Source: Nitrospirota bacterium
GTDB taxonomy: Bacteria > Nitrospirota > JACRHL01
Assembly: GCA_029881725.1 (NCBI GenBank)
Contig: JAOUMB010000002.1
Coordinates: forward strand, 43,398 to 107,397
DNA: 64,000 nt
Reading direction: 5' to 3'
A model generated the notes under the pieces. The model did no database searches. It was not told the DNA's origin and saw only the letters and a program-made list of their open reading frames with translations. Position numbers and translations under genes: made by a program. Position 1 is the stretch's first letter. Every line of letters begins with the position of its first letter. Shown here piece after piece: positions 25,769-38,342 of this stretch.

Positions 25769-27235
25769 CTACACCCCCTCCTCTTCCAGGGTCTGCAACT
25801 GATGGTTGATCCCGCGCTGCAAGACTTCGTCGCCCGCCGGATCGATTTCACCCAGCACCTGCACCGCCTGCCCCGGCTTCAGGGTCAGCCGCAGGTAGCG
25901 CGCAAGGTGGAACCTGCCCCAGGGGGCACGCGGCCCCTCCGCCAATAACTGCGAAAGGCGAAAATGGGCCATGGACAGCTCATCGTCCAACGCAATTGCC
26001 CGCTCATAAGCCGCCAGCGCCAAGTCCGCCTCGCCCCTGCGTCGGTGCCACTCCCCCTGCCAGAAGTGCACGCTGGCCCCTTGCGGGTCGGCCGCCTGGG
26101 CCCGCTCCAACATGCCGGCCGCAGCCGCATCCTCCTGACGCACCAGGCATTCCGCCAGCGCCGCCAACGCCATCGCGGACTCCGGGGACTCCCGCACTGC
26201 CTGCTCCAGGAGCGGCCGGGCACGGGACAGGCGCGCGGCGCGCAACGCGGCGTAGCCCTTTTCAAAGGTCCCCTCACCCGGCACGCGCCCATCCACCGCC
26301 CGCGCGGCCAGCCCCGCCTGCAACCGTTGCCACCGCCCCGGATCCCGCGGGGCTGGCCCCTCCCCGCGTCGCTCGATCATCCGTTCCACACGATCGTAAC
26401 GCTCCTCCAGACCGGGGTGGGTGGATAGATAGGTGTACTGGTTTTTGGGTAACACCAGGTGGGCCTGCTGCCGCAACACACCGAAGAAACGCACCAGCCC
26501 CCCCGGCGCATAGTCGGCGTCATACAGGTAGGAAATTCCCGCCACGTCGGCCTCGCGCTCGTTATCGCGGCTGTAGGCCAGTTGCATGGAGGCCGCACCC
26601 GCCAGTGACACCGCCGCTACGGACTCCGAGCGCCCGAGAAGAATCGCCGCCGCCGCCATCAGATCGACGGCGGTGACCTTTTTCTGGTCCTTGAAAAAGT
26701 GGCCGTGGGTAACGTGCGCCACCTCGTGGGCCAGCACCCCGGCCAGTTCCTCCTCATCCCCCAGCCGGCGTAACAGACCGTCAAAAACGAAAATATAGCC
26801 GCCGGGGATGGCAAAGGCATTGGCCTGAGGGTTTTCCACCACAAAGAAGTGATAACTGTCCGGGTCCACCCCCGCGGCCACGGCAATATCGTGACCGATG
26901 GCCCGCACCGTGGCACCCACGTCCTCGTCGGTGTAAAACCGATACCCACCCAGTGCGCTGGCCATGAACGACTTGCCAATCTCCTTGCCGCGCAACACCG
27001 GCCCGGAGGGGGGCGGGCTGCCCGGTTCAGCGTCGGTCGCGGCTGGCTCATCCGACACCGGGCCGGACGCACACCCGGCCAGCACCGCCAGCAGGCAGGT
27101 CATGCGCAGACATCTGAACAACGGGTTTCCGATTGGCACGCTCTCTCCCAACCCCATGCGACGGCTCTCCACCATCATACCCGGTGTAATCGCTCCCCCC
27201 AATCTTTCCCGGAACGGGACAGAATGTTTGCCCAA
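25769..27235 (-). CDS. M48-family metalloprotease with TPR-type C-terminal repeats (BepA/LoiP-like); start uncertain
   Basis: VLAHEVAHVTHGHF (HEXXH), FAIPGGYIFVFDGLL; later Ala-rich repeats. Confidence 0.85.
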   Translation of the reverse strand: MGKHSVPFRERLGGAITPGMMVESRRMGLGESVPIGNPLFRCLRMTCLLAVLAGCASGPVSDEPAATDAEPGSPPPSGPVLRGKEIGKSFMASALGGYRFYTDEDVGATVRAIGHDIAVAAGVDPDSYHFFVVENPQANAFAIPGGYIFVFDGLLRRLGDEEELAGVLAHEVAHVTHGHFFKDQKKVTAVDLMAAAAILLGRSESVAAVSLAGAASMQLAYSRDNEREADVAGISYLYDADYAPGGLVRFFGVLRQQAHLVLPKNQYTYLSTHPGLEERYDRVERMIERRGEGPAPRDPGRWQRLQAGLAARAVDGRVPGEGTFEKGYAALRAARLSRARPLLEQAVRESPESAMALAALAECLVRQEDAAAAGMLERAQAADPQGASVHFWQGEWHRRRGEADLALAAYERAIALDDELSMAHFRLSQLLAEGPRAPWGRFHLARYLRLTLKPGQAVQVLGEIDPAGDEVLQRGINHQLQTLEEEGV

Positions 27236-27283
27236 GCGGCGCGCCTCCCTTAAAATGTTTCATAGTTGAAAAATTGAGTGGAC

Positions 27284-28711
27284 ATGCGACAGCTTACCGA
27301 AGAAAAAATCGACCCGGAGGTCATCCTCAACGCCCTCAACGACGGCGTGGTGACCATTGGCCTGGACCGCCGGGTGCACTACATCAACGAGGCCGCCCTG
27401 CGCATTCTCGGCTATTCCCGCACCGAGGCCCTGGGGGCCGAGTGCAGCCAGGTGATCCGCTGCGCGGCCTGCTCCAGCTCCGAATGCCTGATGGACAGAA
27501 CGCTGGAGACCGGGCAGGACATCCGCTCCTACGACACCTATCTGGTGAACAAGACCGGCCAGCAGGTCCCGATCACCGTCAACGCCACCCTGTTGCGCGA
27601 CGAGGACGGGCAGGTGATCGGCGAGGTGGAGGTGTTCCGCGACATCTCGGAACAGATCAAGCTCACCGAGGAGTTGCACGGCAAATACTCCTTCGGGCGG
27701 ATCATCGGCAAGAACCACCGGATGCAGCAGATTTACGACATCCTGCCATCCATCGCCGCCACCAAGACCACCGTGCTCATCGAGGGGGAAACCGGCACCG
27801 GCAAGGAACTCATCGCCCACGCCCTGCACGAGCACAGCGCGCGCTCCGGCAAGCCGTTCGTCAAGTTCAACTGCGCAGCCCTGGCCGAGGGGGTGCTGGA
27901 AAGCGAACTGTTCGGTCACGTGAAGGGGGCCTTTACTGGCGCCGTGGCCGACAAGAAGGGCCGCTTTGAACTGGCCGACGGCGGCACCATCTTCCTGGAC
28001 GAAATCGGCGATATCTCGCCCGCAACCCAGGTACGGCTGCTGCGTGTACTGCAGGAGGAAGCCTTCGAACCGGTGGGTGGCAACCACACGGTGCGGGTGG
28101 ACGTGCGGGTCATCGCCGCCACCCACCGCGACCTGAAGCAAATGGTCCGCGAAGGCAAATTCCGCGAGGACCTTTACTACCGCCTGCGGGTGGTACCGCT
28201 GCACCTTCCGCCCCTGCGCGAACGGCACGACGACATCCCGGCGCTGATCAACCACTTCCTGTCCGGTTTCAACCAGGAAATGGACAAGGACGTGCGCGAG
28301 GTAAGCCCCGAGGCCATGGACGTGCTGATGAATTACCCCTATCCAGGCAACGTGCGTGAACTGGAAAACATCCTGGAGCACGCCATGGTGCTGTGCCGGG
28401 GAAGCCAACTCACCCTGCACGCCCTGCCCAGCGAGGTGGTGCAAACCCGGCGCGGACTGGTGCAAATCAACACCATTCCGCAGTTGTCACAGCCGCCGGG
28501 CGGGGGCCTGATTGGCGTTGCCGTGCGGCCCTCCGGCCCCACCGGCGACAATCCGCTCAAGCAGGTGGAGCGGGAGGCAATTGTGGGGGTGCTCGATCAG
28601 TGCTCCTGGAAGCTGGGCATGGCCGCTGAGCGTCTGGGCATGAGCCGCACCACCCTGTGGCGCCGGATGAAGGAGTTCGGTATCGACAAGCGCGGCGGCC
28701 ACGCTGCGTGA
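27284..28711 (+). CDS. sigma54-dependent transcriptional activator with N-terminal PAS domain
   Basis: PAS-like N-terminus with [10 protein letters not shown] Cys motif; AAA+ [30 protein letters not shown] (GAFTGA loop), C-terminal Fis HTH. Confidence 0.95.
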
Positions 28712-29544
28712 GCGCCGTCTACCTGACCAAGCGGGCCGAGGTGGCGGTAGCCCACCAGTGCCTGCGCGACGACTGGAATGCGCTGCAGAACGAGGCGGTT
28801 TACGGACTGGAAAGCCGCCCTCACGGCCACAACTACCTGATTGAGGTAACCGTGGCGGGGGAGGTTCGACCGGAATCCGGCATGGTGGTCAACATCAAGG
28901 ACGTAAAGGCCGCCATGGGGGCCGTACTGGCCGATTACGACCACCGCAACCTGAACGGCGACCATCCGGCCTTCGCCCGCCAGGCACCCACCACCGAGCG
29001 GGTGGTGCAACAGATGTGGGCGGACCTGCAAGGCCGCTTGACGGACGGCACCCTGGAGCGGGTACGCCTGTTTGAGAACGAAGACACCTGGTACGAGGCA
29101 CACCGGCCCGGCTCTCCGCTGGCGCCGGGCGTGAAAGCAAGCATGCTGATTACCCGCAGATATACATTCTCCGCCGCCCACCGGCTGCACGCACCGAGCC
29201 TCTCCGAACAGGAGAACCGGGACCTGTTCAGGGATTGCAACAACCCCAACGGGCACGGCCACAACTACACCCTTGAGGTAACCGTCGGCGGCGATGTGGA
29301 CCCGCAAACCGGGCTGGCCACTGACCATCGGGGGCTGGACGAAACCATCCGCAAGGCGGTGGTGGACCGCTACAACTTCCGCAACCTGAACGGCGAGGTT
29401 CCGGAATTTGCGGACCAGGTCACCACGTCGGAGAATATCGTACGAACCATCTGGCAAACCCTGGAGCGGCAACTCGGCGACGGCACCCTGTACCGGATCC
29501 GATTGGGGGAAACCCGCGACAATTATTTTGAATACTATGGATAG
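28708..29544 (+). CDS. tandem-domain 6-pyruvoyltetrahydropterin synthase/QueD-family protein
   Basis: two HGHNY motifs: ESRPHGHNY (28810-28836) and [11 protein letters not shown] (from 29236); GTG start overlaps upstream stop. Confidence 0.9.
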
Positions 29545-30139
29545 CACCATGAGCGTTCTGGAAAATACCACCGACAGCACCGCCACCCTGGAAACCGCCG
29601 AACTGGTTACCCGCATGCTGCACCTGCTGGGGGAAGACCCGAACCGGGACGGCCTGGTGCGCACCCCGATGCGGGTGGCCAAGTCGCTCCAGTTTCTGAC
29701 CTCCGGCTATCAGGAGGACATCAACGAACTGATCAACGACGCCCTGTTCGACGTGGAATACTCCGAACTGGTGCTGGTGCGCGACATCGACTTTTTCTCC
29801 CTGTGTGAGCATCACATGCTGCCGTTCTACGGCAAGGCCCACGTGGCCTATCTGCCCAACCGGAAGGTTGTGGGACTGTCCAAGCTGCCGCGCATTGTGG
29901 ACGTGTTCTCCCGCCGCCTGCAGGTGCAGGAGCGCCTCACCCAGGATGTGGCGCAAGCCGTACAGGAGGCGGTGAACCCCCACGGGGTGGCGGTGGTGAT
30001 CGAAGCCAATCACCTGTGCATGATGATGCGCGGCGTGGAAAAGCAGAACAGCACCACGGTCACCAGTGCCATGCTCGGCACCTTTAAGGACGACCCCAAG
30101 GCGCGTTCCGAGTTCCTCGACCTGATCCGGCGCAGATAA
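29537..30139 (+). CDS. folE: GTP cyclohydrolase I
   Basis: [64 protein letters not shown]. Confidence 0.97.
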
Positions 30140-30168: not shown

Positions 30169-31458
30169 ATGTTGCAAAGCGCCATTCCGCTGGCCGATGT
30201 GCGCGAGCAGATGGCTGCGTGCATCAAGTGCGCGGCCTGCATGCCCGCCTGCCCCACCTATCGAATTGAACACCGGGAATCCATGGGGCCGCGCGGCCGT
30301 CTGGCCCTCGCGGTCGGACTCCTGGAAGGCACGCTGACCGCCGCCGAGGGCGCCACCCTGCCCATCAGTTCGTGCATCGACTGCCGCGCCTGCGTCCCGG
30401 CCTGCCCCCGCCACATTCGCCTGGACGACGTGTTCTACGCCGCCAAGGCGGAGTTGGCGGCGCAACGGTCCGGTGGCTTTACCAGTTGGGTTATCCGCAA
30501 GGCGGCGCGGGTGATCGTGACCGGCAACCGGTTTCATCGGGTTCTGGCCGCCGGGCGTCTGCTGACCGGCATCTATCGGGGAATCGCCGACACCAGCCCG
30601 GTGGCGCGCCTGCTGCCGTTTTTCCGCAACGGGCGCAAGCGCGTACTGCCGGACATCGTGGTGCGTCCCATGACCGACGACTATGCGGAAGTTGTGGAGC
30701 CGGTGCTCGCCCCCGGCCAGTCGCCAGTGGCCCGGGTGGCGTTCTTCCCCGGCTGCGTCATCAACTTCACCCAGACCGCCATCGGCCACGCCACCGTGCG
30801 GGCATTGACCCGGCTGGGAGTGACCGTGGTGATTCCGAAGCAGGCCCCGTGCTGCGGCATTCCCCTGCTGTCCATTGGCGACCGGGCGGGGGCGAGGCAG
30901 GTGGCCGAAGAGGTGATCCAACGCTATGGCTCGCTGGATGCAGACTGGATCATCACCGCCTGCGCCTCCTGCGGCACCACCCTGCGGGAAACCTACCCGG
31001 ACCTGATGCGAGGCGCCGCCCCTGCCCGGGCGCTGGCGGAGAAGGTCCTGGATGTGAGCGAGTTTATTCACCGCCATACCGACTTCGCGGAACGCGCCGG
31101 ACGCATCACACAGCCGGTCACCTATCATGATCCATGCCACCTGGTGCGCGGCATGGGGGTGACCCGCGAACCACGCGAAATCCTGCGGCAGGTCAGCGAC
31201 GGCCTCATGGAGATGGACGGCGCCGACCGCTGCTGCGGATTCGGGGGCCTGTTCTCCGCCCTGCACTACGACCTGTCCCTGGAAGTGGGGGCCGAAAAAG
31301 CCCGCGCGGTGGCCGCCACCGGAGCGCCGATCGTGGCCACCGGCTGCCCCGGCTGCCAGATGCAGATGACGGACACCCTGAACCGGGAGGGCGTTCCCGC
31401 CCGGGTCCTGCATACGATTGAAGTGCTGGACATGGCGTTGGAGAAGCCCGCCGACTGA
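30169..31458 (+). CDS. glycolate oxidase iron-sulfur subunit-like protein (GlcF family; two 4Fe-4S, two CCG domains)
   Basis: CIKCAACMPACPTYR, CIDCRACVPACP, FFPGCVINF..., APCCGIP, CCGFGG, CPGCQMQ. Confidence 0.87.
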   Translation: MLQSAIPLADVREQMAACIKCAACMPACPTYRIEHRESMGPRGRLALAVGLLEGTLTAAEGATLPISSCIDCRACVPACPRHIRLDDVFYAAKAELAAQRSGGFTSWVIRKAARVIVTGNRFHRVLAAGRLLTGIYRGIADTSPVARLLPFFRNGRKRVLPDIVVRPMTDDYAEVVEPVLAPGQSPVARVAFFPGCVINFTQTAIGHATVRALTRLGVTVVIPKQAPCCGIPLLSIGDRAGARQVAEEVIQRYGSLDADWIITACASCGTTLRETYPDLMRGAAPARALAEKVLDVSEFIHRHTDFAERAGRITQPVTYHDPCHLVRGMGVTREPREILRQVSDGLMEMDGADRCCGFGGLFSALHYDLSLEVGAEKARAVAATGAPIVATGCPGCQMQMTDTLNREGVPARVLHTIEVLDMALEKPAD

Positions 31459-31611
31459 AACGCAAAACGTTCCGAAATGAAACATGCAACCTGAAACACC
31501 CATGAAACCACGGAATGACCAATATATAATTTTATAATACAACGTGTTGTAGCTATCGTTTCACGACATGAAACGCTCTAATTGTTTCAATTTGGAACAC
31601 GAGTTGTTTCA
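31456..31611. promoter_or_regulatory. cluster of TGAAAC/GTTTCA sites
   Basis: TGAAAC at 31456, 31478, 31492, 31503, 31569; GTTTCA at 31558, 31584, 31606; includes dyad GTTTCA-CGACA-TGAAAC (31558-31574). Confidence 0.6.
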
Positions 31612-31755
31612 CAGCGAAACAGGCCAAGCGTTGGCGGGAGGATTTTCCACCGTCATTTCAACGAGTTACCGGCATGCCAGAGCGATGGCACGGAACGTGA
31701 AGTACGTTGTTGTACGCGGTCGGAATATCCGACGCTGTTTTTTAGGAGGTTCAAC

Positions 31756-31950
31756 ATGAACTGCCCGCGCTGCAGCAACACAATGATTGCCGACACCTTC
31801 ACGGATCTGATGGACGACAGTGGCGTGCTGGGCATCACCGCTTGGCGCTGCCTCACATGCGGCGAGGTGGTGGATCCGGTGATTATGGCCAACCGCGCCA
31901 ATCGCCCCGAGCCGTTTGTAAGCAAGTCGCGGAAAAACTGGGGCTCATAA
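31756..31950 (+). CDS. 64-aa zinc-ribbon-like protein of unknown function
   Basis: AGGAGG SD at 31744; MNCPRCSNTM...WRCLTCGEVVDPVIMANR (two CXXC pairs). Confidence 0.8.
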   Translation: MNCPRCSNTMIADTFTDLMDDSGVLGITAWRCLTCGEVVDPVIMANRANRPEPFVSKSRKNWGS

Positions 31951-32081
31951 AGCCCAAACCTTGCCTGTTTACAGCGCAGGGGTTACGATTGCACAACACC
32001 GTTTTGATGTTCGTCCGAGTCCGCACAGTTTCTGATGTGTGCGGAACGGCCTGAAACCACCGAGGGAAGGAGCATACCCCG

Positions 32082-32423
32082 ATGTCCACCGAGACCACCA
32101 CGATCAACGTTACCGAAGCCGCCTCCACCAAGATCAAGGAGCTGCTGGAGAGCGAGAACAAGCAGGACCACGGCATTCGCCTTTCGGTCACCGGTGGCGG
32201 CTGCCACGGCTACCAGTACGGCATGAATTTCGACAACAACATCGGCGAGATGGATCAAGTGATCGAAGCCGCCGGCGTGAAGTTCATCGTCGACGCCATG
32301 AGCATGCCGATGCTGACTGGCGCCCAGGTCGACTACGTGGAGACCATGCAGGGTGCGGGCTTTGCCATCAACAACCCGAACGCCCAGTCCACCTGCGGTT
32401 GCGGCAGCTCCTTCAGCGCCTGA
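32082..32423 (+). CDS. A-type iron-sulfur carrier / HesB-IscA family protein
   Basis: GIRLSVTGGGCHGYQYGM ... STCGCGSSF (three conserved Cys). Confidence 0.9.
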   Translation: MSTETTTINVTEAASTKIKELLESENKQDHGIRLSVTGGGCHGYQYGMNFDNNIGEMDQVIEAAGVKFIVDAMSMPMLTGAQVDYVETMQGAGFAINNPNAQSTCGCGSSFSA

Positions 32424-32480: not shown

Positions 32481-32516
32481 AAAGGCCCGCTTCGCCCAGC
32501 GAAGCGGGCCTTTTTG
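32481..32516 (+). terminator. Rho-independent terminator
   Basis: AAAGGCCCGCTTCGC-CCA-GCGAAGCGGGCCTTTTT hairpin plus U-tract. Confidence 0.9.
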
Positions 32517-32555
32517 TATTCCGGCGCCCTCCGTGGCTCATGCTATGATCCGCCC

Positions 32556-32927
32556 ATGCCAACCGACCGCCTGACCATCCACAACATTGCCTTTACCGCC
32601 CCATGCGGGGTATTTTCCGAGGAACGGGAGAGCGGCATGCGCTACCGGGCCGACCTGACCCTGATGATGGACACCTCCACCGCCGCCGCCAGCGACCGAC
32701 TGGAGGACGCAGTGGACTACGCCGCCGTGGCCAAAGCGGTGGTGGAAACCGCCACCGGGGCCGAGCGTTTTCTGGTGGAACGCATGGCGGCGGACATCGC
32801 CGACGTGGTATTGACGCGTTTTGCGCCGGTAATGGAGGTGGATCTGGCGGTCACCAAGGTGGCCCCCCCGGTTCCGGAGATCGGCGGCGGCGTGACCGTA
32901 TCCATCCGCCGCGCCCGCAGCCGGTAG
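32556..32927 (+). CDS. folB: dihydroneopterin aldolase family protein
   Basis: DRLTIHNIAFTAPCGVFSEERESGMRYRADLTLM ... DAVDYAAVAKAV ... FLVERMAADIAD. Confidence 0.85.
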   Translation: MPTDRLTIHNIAFTAPCGVFSEERESGMRYRADLTLMMDTSTAAASDRLEDAVDYAAVAKAVVETATGAERFLVERMAADIADVVLTRFAPVMEVDLAVTKVAPPVPEIGGGVTVSIRRARSR

Positions 32928-33253: not shown

Positions 33254-36200
33254 ATGCGTCGTTTTACCTTCTTCCAGTTTGCGCTCTGCATTTTCACTGT
33301 CGTGAGCCTGTCACTCCCGCACATCGCTCTGGCACAGGGGTATCAGATGCATGACGTGGTGTGGACGAACCCGATCGGCGTAACGATTTCCGGCAACACA
33401 ATCACCAAAACCGGCGGCGTCAATGGCGAGTGGGATTCCGGCGCGGTATCCACGCGCACGTTTTCCGGCGACGGCGGTGTGGAATACACCACTGACAGTT
33501 CCTAATTACGGAGGCCGCTTCATCGGGCTCAGCACGGAAGACGTGGATGGCACCACCGGCACGATTGACTACGCGATATTCCTTTGGGGCATCAACAACG
33601 GGTTTAGCCTTTACGAAAACGGCGTCGGCGTCGGGGGCGGCACCTGGGCGATCAACGACACCTTCCGGATCGAGCGTACCGGAACCACCGTCACCTATTT
33701 TCAAAACGGCGTGGCAGTCGGGACCAGCCCCACCCCCTCCACCGGCCGCCTGATGGTGGACTCCTCCCTCCGGTACACAGACAGCGCCATTACCAACATC
33801 CGCATTTTCAGCACCGATAACGTGGCGGACCCGATGGTCTTTTTCACCCCCCAGGTCACGGCCAGCCCGCAAAGCGCTGTGTTGCGTTGGGACACCAGCG
33901 ACAGCGCCACCAGCCGCGTGCTGTTTGGCGCCGGCGGCGTGATCGACCAGGCTTCCGTAACCAGCACGGCGTTGACAGACTGGCATCACATTGCCATTGC
34001 GCCCCTGCTGCCGGGAACCGAGTACACCGCTCAGGTGGAGAGCACCGACGGCTGGGGCAACGTGTTCCTGGGACCGGTGGTCACCTTCACCACCGATGCG
34101 ACCCCATGGACGTCCCAGAACATCGCGTGGACGAACAAGGTCGGCGTGACCGTGGACGGCGCCAATACGCTGTCCAAAACCGCCTCCACCGGATGGAACG
34201 CAGGTGCAACCGGCGCGAACCAGCCATTCCAGGGCGACGGAGCAGTGGAGTGGGTGGCGTCGGAGACCAATACTGCGCGCATGGTGGGGCTCTCCTACAC
34301 CAACGTGGACAACAGCTACACATCCCTTAATTACGCGCTGTACACAAACCACTTCGGAAATCTGTATGCTTTCGAATCAGGTGTAAACACCCGTACCTAC
34401 GGGGCGTACCAGACCGGCGATGTGCTGCGTGTTGAGCGCGTGGGCGCCACGATCTTCTACTCTGTGAACGGGGTGCCGTTCTACACCAGCACCGTGCCCT
34501 CCGGGGGAAGCGTCTTTGCGGACACCTCGCTGTACCACACGGGCAGCACCATCCAGGGGGTCAAAATCTACAATGCCAACCAGCCCGCGGCGCAACGGCA
34601 TGACGTGATCTGGGACACCCTGGCCAACGTTACTCCGGGAGGCGGCGGAACGTTGACCAAGACATCCCCCAACGCCTGGAACGGCGGGGCCATCTCCAGC
34701 CAGATCATCCCCGCGGACGGCGGTGTGGAATTTACCTACGATCAGTCGGTTGCGGTCCTCATCGGCCTGTCCGATCCGGTTGGCGGCGCTACGAATGGAT
34801 CCTTGAACAGCATCGCCTACGGGATGATGCAGAACGGCTCTTCTCTTTCCGTGTATGAAAAGGGCGTCGTGGTCGGAACCTTTGGCTCCTCCGCCCTCGG
34901 AACCACGATTTCCGTCGAACGCAAGGACGACGTGGTGTTCTATCTCAAGGATGGCATACCCGTATTCTGGAGCACGCTACCTTCCATGGGCGATCTGGTG
35001 GCCGACGTCAGCCTTTACTGGGAGGGCGCCTATCTGACCAACGCGCGTGTTTTCGCCAGCCCGCATGAACAGACCCCGAGCACCATTCCAAACCCTGGTG
35101 CGGGTTTGATCACAGAGGACGGCGCGACGATCTCGTGGGACTCGCTGGATCCGTCGAGTCAGCCGGAACTGAACGTCGGTTCCGTGCGCTACGGCACGAC
35201 CCTGGGAAGCTACCCCAATGCGGCGCCGGCGAATCCGGTTCCCGCCAGCAGCCATGCGTTCCGCCTGGGCAACCTGGCCGCCAATACCCAGTACTACGCG
35301 GAAATATCCTCCGACGACGGCTGGGGCAACGTGGCCACCACGGTGGTCACCTTTGTGACCGACGCGGCCGTTCCGCGCGCCGACGTGGTGTGGACGGATC
35401 TGGTCGGAACCACTGCCGGAGCGGCGGGGGCCCTTACCAAGACCGCGCTAACCGACAGCTGGGACAGCGGTGCCGTCTCGGTGCAGCGCTTATCCGCCGA
35501 CGGCGGCGTGGAGTTCACCCACGACACCGCCGTTGCCGTGGTAATCGGCCTTTCCAACTCGGCCACCGCGGCCTCCAACGCGACGCTTGGAAGCATCGAC
35601 TACGGGCTGATGGCCAATGGCTCCACGATCTCCGTGTACGAAAACGGCGTCAACAAGGGCGATTTCGGAACCGGCAGCGGAGCCACCCTGCGGGTGGAAC
35701 GCGTGGAGGGCACCGTGATCTACTCGAAGAACGGTGAGTCCTTCTACGTGAGCGAGGTGCCGTCCACCGGTGAGCTGGCGGCTGATATCAGCCTGTTCTG
35801 GCAGACGAAGGGCATCTCCAACGCCCGGGTATTCAACGCCAACACCCCGCCTTGTGCGGAACCGGTGACCGCCGATACTACCGTGGACACGCCGATCGCG
35901 ATCACGCTGCTCGGCTGTGACCCGGACGGGTATCCGATCACCTACACCGTGGGCAACCCGCAGTACGGCTCCCTGAGCGGCCACCTGGACGGAGATGCAT
36001 CGGTCATCTATACACCGGCGCCGGGCGACGCGCGCACCGACACCTTTACCTATACGGTTTCGGACGGGCAGTACGTAACGGCACCGGCAACCGTTACCGT
36101 GCGGGTTAACGCTGCGCCGGTCGCGGTCGACGACACGGCCACCACGGACGAGGACGTAGCGGTGGCCGTGAACGTGCTGACCAACGACACCGACGCCAAT

Positions 36201-38342
36201 GGCGACACCCTGACCGTCCTGCAGGCCAGCAACGGCAACAATGGACAGACGGTTGTGAACCTGGACCAGACGGTCACCTATACCCCGAACGCCGACTGGA
36301 ACGGCACCGACACCTTCACTTACATCGTTTCAGACGGGCGCGGTCTTTCGGCCACCGGCACCGTCACCATCACGGTGAACCCGGTGCAGGACGCGCCGCG
36401 CGGAAAGAGCACTCCGCCAGTGCACGTCCTGCCTGAAGACGGCATGATCGTCATCGACATCAACGATCATGTAATCGATCCAGATGGAGAGCCTCTCAAC
36501 GTTTCGCGTATCGTCACCCCTCCCGGCTGGGGTGGCAGCGCCACCGTGGACGCCCTCAACAACGCCAACGTGGAATACCTGCCGGGCACCGATTATGCGG
36601 GCCCTGACAGCTTCGAGGCAGAAGTGGTCGACACCCAGGGCGCCACCTACATCGCGGTGATCAGCTTTGATGTCACCCCGGTGGCCGACGCCCCGCGCCA
36701 GAGCCAGCCCATCACCCCGGACATCTGCCACGAGGACCACGTGGCCGGCACCACGATCTACGTATATAACTACGTGACCGATCCGGACGTGGGCGATACC
36801 GTCACCTTTACCGGCAACTTCACCAACCCCACCAGCGGTGGCACGGTGACGCCGATGCTGGACGGCGGCGGCAACTTCACCGGCAACTTCAACTACGTGC
36901 CGGGGCCGGACTTCAACGGTGTGGACAGCTTCACCTGCGAGATGATGGACAGCACCGGCAACATCATCTGGGTGACCATCACCCTCGAGGTGTTGCCCGC
37001 CAACGACGCGCCGGTTCCGGGTCCGGACGCCATGACCACCGACGAGGACGGCCTGGCGGTAACCATCAACGTGCTGGCCAACGACACCGACATCGACGGC
37101 GACACCCTCACCCTGACCGCAGTGAACACCGCCGGCACCCAGGGTACGGTGACCTTTACCGCAAACGGTGACGTGACCTTTACTCCGAGCGTGGCCAACT
37201 ACAACGGCCCCACCACGTTCACCTACACGGTGGACGACGGCTCCGGCGTGTCCAACGCTACCGCCACCGGAACCGTGACGGTGACCGTGAACCCGGTCAA
37301 CGACGCGCCGGTGTTCGGCACCGCCACCGCCACCACCGTGGCGGAGCCGGGCACCAGCACCGTCACCGTGACCGGTTCGGACATCGACGGCGACGTGCTC
37401 ACCTATCTGGCCGATTGCGCCAACGACGGGGTGTACGAGCTGAGCAATGGCACAGGCGAGTTCACCTGCGCCTACACCGACAGCGGCACCTACACCGTTC
37501 CGGTGAAGGTGTCGGACGGGGTGGTGGAAGCCGCCGGGTCGGCCACCGTCACGGTGACCAACGTGGCCCCGGTGATCACCGCGGTCACCGCGCCAATCAG
37601 CCCGCAACCGCTGGCCAGCGCAGTGAGCCTGAGCGTGGCCTTCAGCGACGTGAGCCCGGACGACACCCTCTTTACGGTGTCGTACAACTGGGATGTGGAC
37701 GACCCGGCCTCGGTGCCCGACGTGTTCACCGGCGTGAACGGCACGTGGGACGCGGGTCAGGGGCTGACGCTTGGCAGCCACACGGCCAGCCACACCTATA
37801 CCGCCAACGGCGGCTACGTGGTGAAGGTGGACGTGACCGACAAGGACGGCGGCACGGTGTTCACGGAGCACCACTTCATCACCGTGTACGACGCCACCCA
37901 GGGCCACATCACGGCGGGCGGCTGGTACAACGATGTGGACGGCACCGCCGAGTTCGGCTTCGCCAGCGTCTACCCGCTGGGACAAACCAGTTCCACCATG
38001 ATGGGTGACTTCCATCACACCGCCCTGGGGATCGACTTCCACATGAACCTGGATGTCACCTGGGTGGTGCTGGCCAATGCGGAAAGCCGCTTTACCGGAA
38101 GCGGGTACATGGAAACCGACCCACTCCAGCCGCTGAACTTCATGGTGTCCATGATCGACGCGGACCAGCCAAACGCCAAGTCGACCCTCGACGCGATCCG
38201 CTTCAGGATCTGGCGGGACAACGGCGATGGAACCACCACGGACGTCTATGACAGCCAGGTGGGCGACGGCGATACCGTCGACCCCACCGAGCTGTTGGAC
38301 GGCACCAACGGCGCCGGAGGTGTGTCCATCAGCCGCAACTGA
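33254..38342 (+). CDS. secreted repeat protein (jelly-roll-like repeats, Fn3-like, cadherin-like/Big repeats, PKD-like), apparent +1 frameshift near 33500-33505
   Basis: frame-2 ORF carries MRRFTFFQFALCIFTVVSLSLPHIALAQG signal peptide plus first half of repeat; repeat continues in frame of the 33423-38342 ORF; repeats recur at ~34110, 34600, 35380. Confidence 0.75.

Follow-up and report, generated by a model that had tools for sequence, protein, structure and literature searches.

The DNA at positions 31456-31620 of the window (the whole 64,000-nucleotide stretch that was analysed) is very probably a UAS for a linked PAS-AAA+-Fis sigma54 activator (bEBP), which would drive a small zinc-ribbon gene from a sigma54 promoter and repress its own synthesis. 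Judging from upstream sequences of orthologous genes, the TGAAAC/GTTTCA cluster found there has been conserved across a phylum of bacteria. The bEBP is best read as nearly single-target, given the distribution of its predicted sites.

The hexamer cluster and its conservation

The elements of the cluster are listed below.
31456-31620, no strand: predicted UAS (enhancer) with eight TGAAAC/GTTTCA half-sites, from counts, shuffles and conservation before orthologs
31469-31483, no strand: dyad 1, GTTCCgaaatGAAAC, gap 5, from the sequence
31521-31551, no strand: AT-rich spacer between the two groups of sites, from the sequence
31558-31574, no strand: atypical dyad, GTTTCacgacatGAAAC, gap 7, a gap without enrichment across relatives
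31584-31598, no strand: dyad 2, GTTTCaatttGGAAC, gap 5, from the sequence
31606-31620, no strand: dyad 3, GTTTCacagcGAAAC, gap 5, from the sequence

An exact-word count confirmed all eight hexamers listed by an earlier sequence-only reading of the region: TGAAAC at 31456 (overlapping the stop codon of the gene upstream), 31478, 31492, 31503 and 31569, and GTTTCA at 31558, 31584 and 31606. Between 31450 and 31639 these eight copies compare with a shuffle mean of 0.32 and a maximum of 4 in 5000 shuffles, none of which reached 8; the earlier reading had put the chance expectation at ~0.1. When the top repeat count of any hexamer was recorded for the same interval, 7 was reached once in 1000 shuffles and 8 never. 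The whole window contains 30 copies of TGAAAC/GTTTCA versus 22.7 expected, which is scarcely above expectation, so the excess is local. Some 190-bp segments elsewhere in the window also hold 7-11 copies of one hexamer, and those inspected (7381, 25121 and 62581) are GC- or G-rich low-complexity DNA.

The three dyads named earlier all exist, but GTTTCACGACATGAAAC is atypical in its 7-bp gap, and two further dyads had been overlooked, GTTCCGAAATGAAAC at 31469-31483 and one at 27257-27272. The half-sites and spacing of dyad 2 are identical to those of GTTTCattttGGAAC in the nearest named relative, and dyad 3 is displaced from dyad 2 by 22 bp, roughly two turns of the helix. The hexamers at 31456, 31492 and 31503 are single half-sites with no partner. 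The AT-rich spacer could provide a bend or a sigma70-like promoter.

A DNA similarity search with the whole intergenic region returned the window itself and weak, chance-level matches only, and footprinting was therefore done via the orthologous zinc-ribbon gene. The set comprised 310 bp upstream of this gene in 17 genomes of families f1, f2, f6, f8 and f10, which belong to one phylum, probably Nitrospirota to go by one named relative. Among all hexamer classes in these regions TGAAAC/GTTTCA shows the strongest enrichment: all 17 contain it, and z is 23.6 for the full set, 20.9 once the window is left out and 16.8 once its whole family is left out. In five genomes of other families z is 12.8, and this is the fairest figure, because related species are not independent. 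The next-ranked words, TGTTTC/GAAACA and CGTTTC/GAAACG, are extensions of the same motif. The number of hexamers varies, and some orthologs have just one or two.

The arrangement of the half-sites is conserved as well. Pairs of the form GTTTC...GAAAC (at most one mismatch) number 12 at gap 5 and 9 at gap 6, compared with about 0.2 expected for each (0/300 shuffles), and are close to chance at all other gaps. A hold-out test on eight further upstream regions gave 5 dyads versus 0.29 expected, again with 0/300 shuffles. Upstream of 13 control zinc-ribbon genes without a linked activator (paralogs and members of family f9), 2 dyads versus 0.23 and 4 hexamers in total were found, and both dyads have the unrelated form GGTTCCAATGGAAAC; the control regions are more GC-rich, for which the per-sequence shuffles allow. 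The conservation of the motif before orthologs, on which the sequence-only reading had staked its interpretation, is thus upheld in five families and supported by hold-outs and negative controls.

The activator, the promoters and alternative explanations

Upstream of the cluster lie the following elements.
27228-27256, + strand: sigma70-type promoter of the activator gene, TTGCCC-N17-TAAAAT, conserved in four genomes
27257-27272, no strand: predicted operator dyad GTTTCATAGTTGAAAA, directly after the activator -10, from sequence comparison
27278-28711, + strand: gene of a sigma54 activator (bEBP) with PAS, AAA+ with GAFTGA and Fis-type HTH, the predicted binder of the sites, from profile matches

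The bEBP is encoded at 27278-28708, more likely with the ATG at 27284 as its start. Its AAA+ domain matches PF00158 (E 2.5e-72), with GAFTGA at residue 217, and its Fis-type HTH matches PF02954 (HTH_8; E 1.3e-11). GAFTGA is kept in the bEBP orthologs, in the form GSFTGA in genome G001. Four cysteines are invariant among the orthologs, and three of them (56, 65 and 70) make up C-x8-C-x3/4-C within the PAS domain; one more distant PAS-bEBP also has these three, which are therefore no hallmark of the group. The activator promoter TTGCCC-N17/18-TARAAT has a GTTTCA dyad, either intact or with slight degradation, 0-4 bp behind it in each of the four f1 genomes. This position, right after the -10, suggests that the activator represses its own synthesis through the dyad. 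Around the activator gene there is a pterin group, consisting of a two-domain 6-pyruvoyl/6-carboxytetrahydropterin synthase followed by folE (28657-30139) and possibly a folB-like ORF at 32514-32927.

Downstream of the cluster the following elements were recognised.
31686-31701, + strand: sigma54-type -24/-12 element TGGCACGGAACGTGAA, good at -24 but weak at -12, from the aligned position in relatives
31744-31749, + strand: ribosome-binding site AGGAGG of the zinc-ribbon gene, from the sequence
31756-31950, + strand: gene of a small zinc-ribbon protein of 64 aa, CPRC...CLTC (CPxC...CxxC), the predicted target, from translation
31961-31989, + strand: separate sigma70-type promoter of the ErpA/IscA-like gene, TTGCCT-N17-TACGAT, conserved in three genomes
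32082-32423, + strand: gene of an ErpA/IscA-type iron-sulfur insertion protein, from profile matches

The -24/-12 element of the window is located at -70 from the zinc-ribbon start, compared with -69 and -70 in two f1 relatives. Its -12 reads GTGAA instead of TTGCA (TTGTA in the two relatives), and its score of 12.0 is marginal alone (shuffle p about 0.06); this poor -12 is the weakest link of the sigma54 reading for the window itself. Among the orthologs the element lies 57-160 bp before the zinc-ribbon gene, in forms including TGGCATAAATCTTGCT, TGGCATGAGTATTGCT and TAGCACGGTTCTTGCT, and it is clear in most of those outside f1 (individual shuffle p 0.003-0.027). Dyadic sites are repeated roughly 80-250 bp upstream of the promoter, which is the layout of a bEBP-activated sigma54 promoter. 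The draft genome carrying the window (2.96 Mb, 126 contigs) also contains the sigma54 gene rpoN (PF04552, E 7.5e-61).

Other signals were looked for as well. Good matches to IHF sites were found in some families only and none in the window; a weaker IHF consensus was discarded as uninformative, being found nearly anywhere in AT-rich sequence. A terminator-like hairpin, GTCGGAATATCCGAC, with a T-rich tail lies at 31719-31733, just before the zinc-ribbon ribosome-binding site, and inspection by eye revealed no obvious counterpart in the leaders of two relatives. The Rfam scan returned two tRNAs and nothing else.

An alternative is that the sites act as repressor or activator operators and that the promoter they control is of sigma70 type and lies in the AT-rich spacer (31502-31530), with no sigma54 enhancer involved. 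The spacer does hold a sigma70-like pair, ATGAAA-N17-TATAAT, the -12 element of the window is weak, and the dyad of the bEBP gene is indeed placed on a promoter of sigma70 type. However, orthologs outside f1 have a good -24/-12 downstream of the sites, and a bEBP with GAFTGA is the regulator linked to them. Moreover, TTGCCY-N17-TAnnAT, the sigma70 promoter pattern of the family, stands before the bEBP gene and, in three genomes, downstream of the zinc ribbon and ahead of the ErpA-like gene, and three genomes lack it in front of the zinc ribbon; on the + strand of the entire window it occurs at 31961 and 27228 only. Such an operator arrangement seems quite unlikely.

It is less probable still that the enhancer serves another bEBP and that the 27278 protein is merely a neighbour. 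At least seven bEBP matches occur in the genome, and in f10 the ortholog lies about 40 kb from the zinc ribbon. Nevertheless, the zinc-ribbon gene has the best bEBP ortholog immediately before it in three families (f2, f6 and f8) and about 3 kb upstream in f1, and the promoter of this bEBP gene carries the same dyad in four genomes. The linkage, together with the dyad on its promoter, suggests that the 27278 bEBP, and not another activator, recognises the sites.

Genome-wide pattern searches were conducted in three genomes (G000, which carries the window, G001 and G003) with pairs of exact hexamers at most 30 bp apart, in two of the three orientations (same-direction and GTTTCA...TGAAAC), and with near-perfect dyads. 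In these searches the three genomes share only two motif loci, one before the zinc-ribbon gene and one at the activator promoter; every other match is confined to one genome, and most are chance-like. The sequence-only reading had looked to enrichment in promoters across the genome, and the motif turned out not to be widespread in them; its confinement to the two loci is what a dedicated activator predicts. A relaxed dyad, GTTYC-N4-7-GRAAC, was rejected as too unspecific (102 places versus 47 for the reversed control). In G000 a further site, GTTTCAATTTGCAAC with two more hexamers, lies downstream of a trpB-like gene (named by eye from its translated end), between it and a small ORF (C64:8132, locus L186), and has no match in relatives; it is possible that it represents a second activator target in this genome only. 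Close to the end of a contig (G000:C13:114-164) stands a short tandem array of TGAAACGGG, which is unrelated to the dyads.

The half-sites of parS are GTTTCA/TGAAAC, the same hexamer as here, but a partition site of the ParB/parS kind, or some other partition or structural element, is highly improbable, since GTTTCACGTGAAAC has a count of 0 in the genome, the dyad gap is 5/6 and not the 4 of parS, and the sites follow one gene through unrelated gene orders. Functionless chance or low-complexity enrichment, to which the repeated hexamers of other window segments might point, is scarcely credible for a word, dyad geometry and position kept in five families and replicated in hold-outs.

The predicted regulatory unit and its neighbourhood

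The predicted mechanism of the sigma54 enhancer can be outlined as follows. Dimers of the bEBP would bind TGTTTC-N5/6-GAAACA dyads, and the multiple dyads and half-sites would load a bEBP hexamer, which DNA looping would bring to sigma54-RNA polymerase at the -24/-12 element. On a signal perceived by the PAS domain, the hexamer would open the zinc-ribbon promoter, while the dyad after the -10 of the activator's sigma70-type promoter would limit activator synthesis. The signal is possibly redox, metal or iron-sulfur status, perceived through the three invariant PAS cysteines.

The sequence-only reading had proposed a multi-site enhancer for the zinc-ribbon gene and possibly for the IscA-like gene; neither sigma54 nor the activator nor its autoregulatory site figured in that proposal. 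The first part holds, given the five-family footprint, the hold-outs and the controls. Direct control of the ErpA/IscA-like gene found no support, as this gene has its own conserved promoter, and the additional TGAAAC noted at 32052, present in the window, is missing from the same gap in two relatives; the main target of the enhancer would thus be the zinc ribbon. The ErpA/IscA-like gene is probably not solely enhancer-dependent, and it is possible that zinc-ribbon transcription reads through into it.

The zinc-ribbon protein matched no family in Pfam or NCBIfam, and a PDB sequence search gave nothing useful. Its gene neighbours hint at a tie to iron-sulfur or redox metabolism: an ErpA-like gene follows it in f1 and f10, and in f8 a pair of 2-oxoacid:ferredoxin oxidoreductase subunit genes lies closely after it (L159, 6737-9626; L160, 6371-9297), so that the f8 sigma54 promoter may control these genes too. 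These neighbours and the three PAS cysteines give rise to a tentative and rather doubtful proposal, namely that the activator senses redox, oxygen or iron-sulfur status and, via sigma54, governs a zinc-ribbon factor tied to iron-sulfur maturation or to oxygen-sensitive ferredoxin enzymes. If this were true, the bEBP would be a sigma54-based counterpart of IscR or SufR.

Several other features of the region and of the gene family were observed. At locus L164 (G000:C41) three zinc-ribbon paralogs lie within 7 kb, without TGAAAC dyads, and in f9 genomes the family has expanded to 8-15 copies each. The ORF at 33423-38342 encodes a protein of 1639 aa with VTVNPVNDAP-type repeats, probably a secreted adhesin-like protein.

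The analysis provides a concrete predicted motif, together with an activator and a target, for a regulatory unit that is uncharacterised and is conserved in several families of a mostly uncultured phylum, and a handle on a small zinc-ribbon protein outside all Pfam and NCBIfam models. It also offers a testable link from this unit to iron-sulfur and ferredoxin metabolism, and indicates that a visual motif call can be converted into a cross-species prediction.

Comparison with known enhancer systems

The few papers found give no description of this regulatory unit and do not name the motif, which is absent from the texts on the D. vulgaris sigma54 regulome and the Clostridiales sigma54 regulon; a 2025 sigma54 comparison contains no Nitrospirota or ErpA content. 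Among described activators, PrdR is reported to have multiple UAS before its operon (PMC6615313). The window bEBP has the same PAS-AAA+-HTH_8 layout, but its 351.7 bits are far under the NCBIfam TF_PrdR cut-off of 795, and the examined neighbours include no proline reductase genes.

One known class of bEBP sites, the NifA/FhlA type, consists of UAS motifs with the pattern TGT-N10-12-ACA (PMC6615313). The dyad TGTTTC-N5/6-GAAACA corresponds to TGT-N11/12-ACA and so falls within this class, and, as in the NifA/FhlA-type systems, several copies of a TGT...ACA inverted repeat precede a sigma54 promoter and the activator gene is linked. Unlike in those systems, the core is GTTTC/GAAAC and the target is a zinc ribbon; the bEBP itself, at 399.6 bits, is under the NCBIfam nifA equivalog cut-off of 528.85. 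With one dyad on the sigma70 promoter of the activator gene and a multi-site UAS at the sigma54 target, the arrangement resembles that of autorepressing bEBPs, autorepression being predicted here. Autorepression of dedicated bEBPs is a general pattern. It seems that the cluster is a new example of a well-known kind of enhancer, the bEBP UAS.
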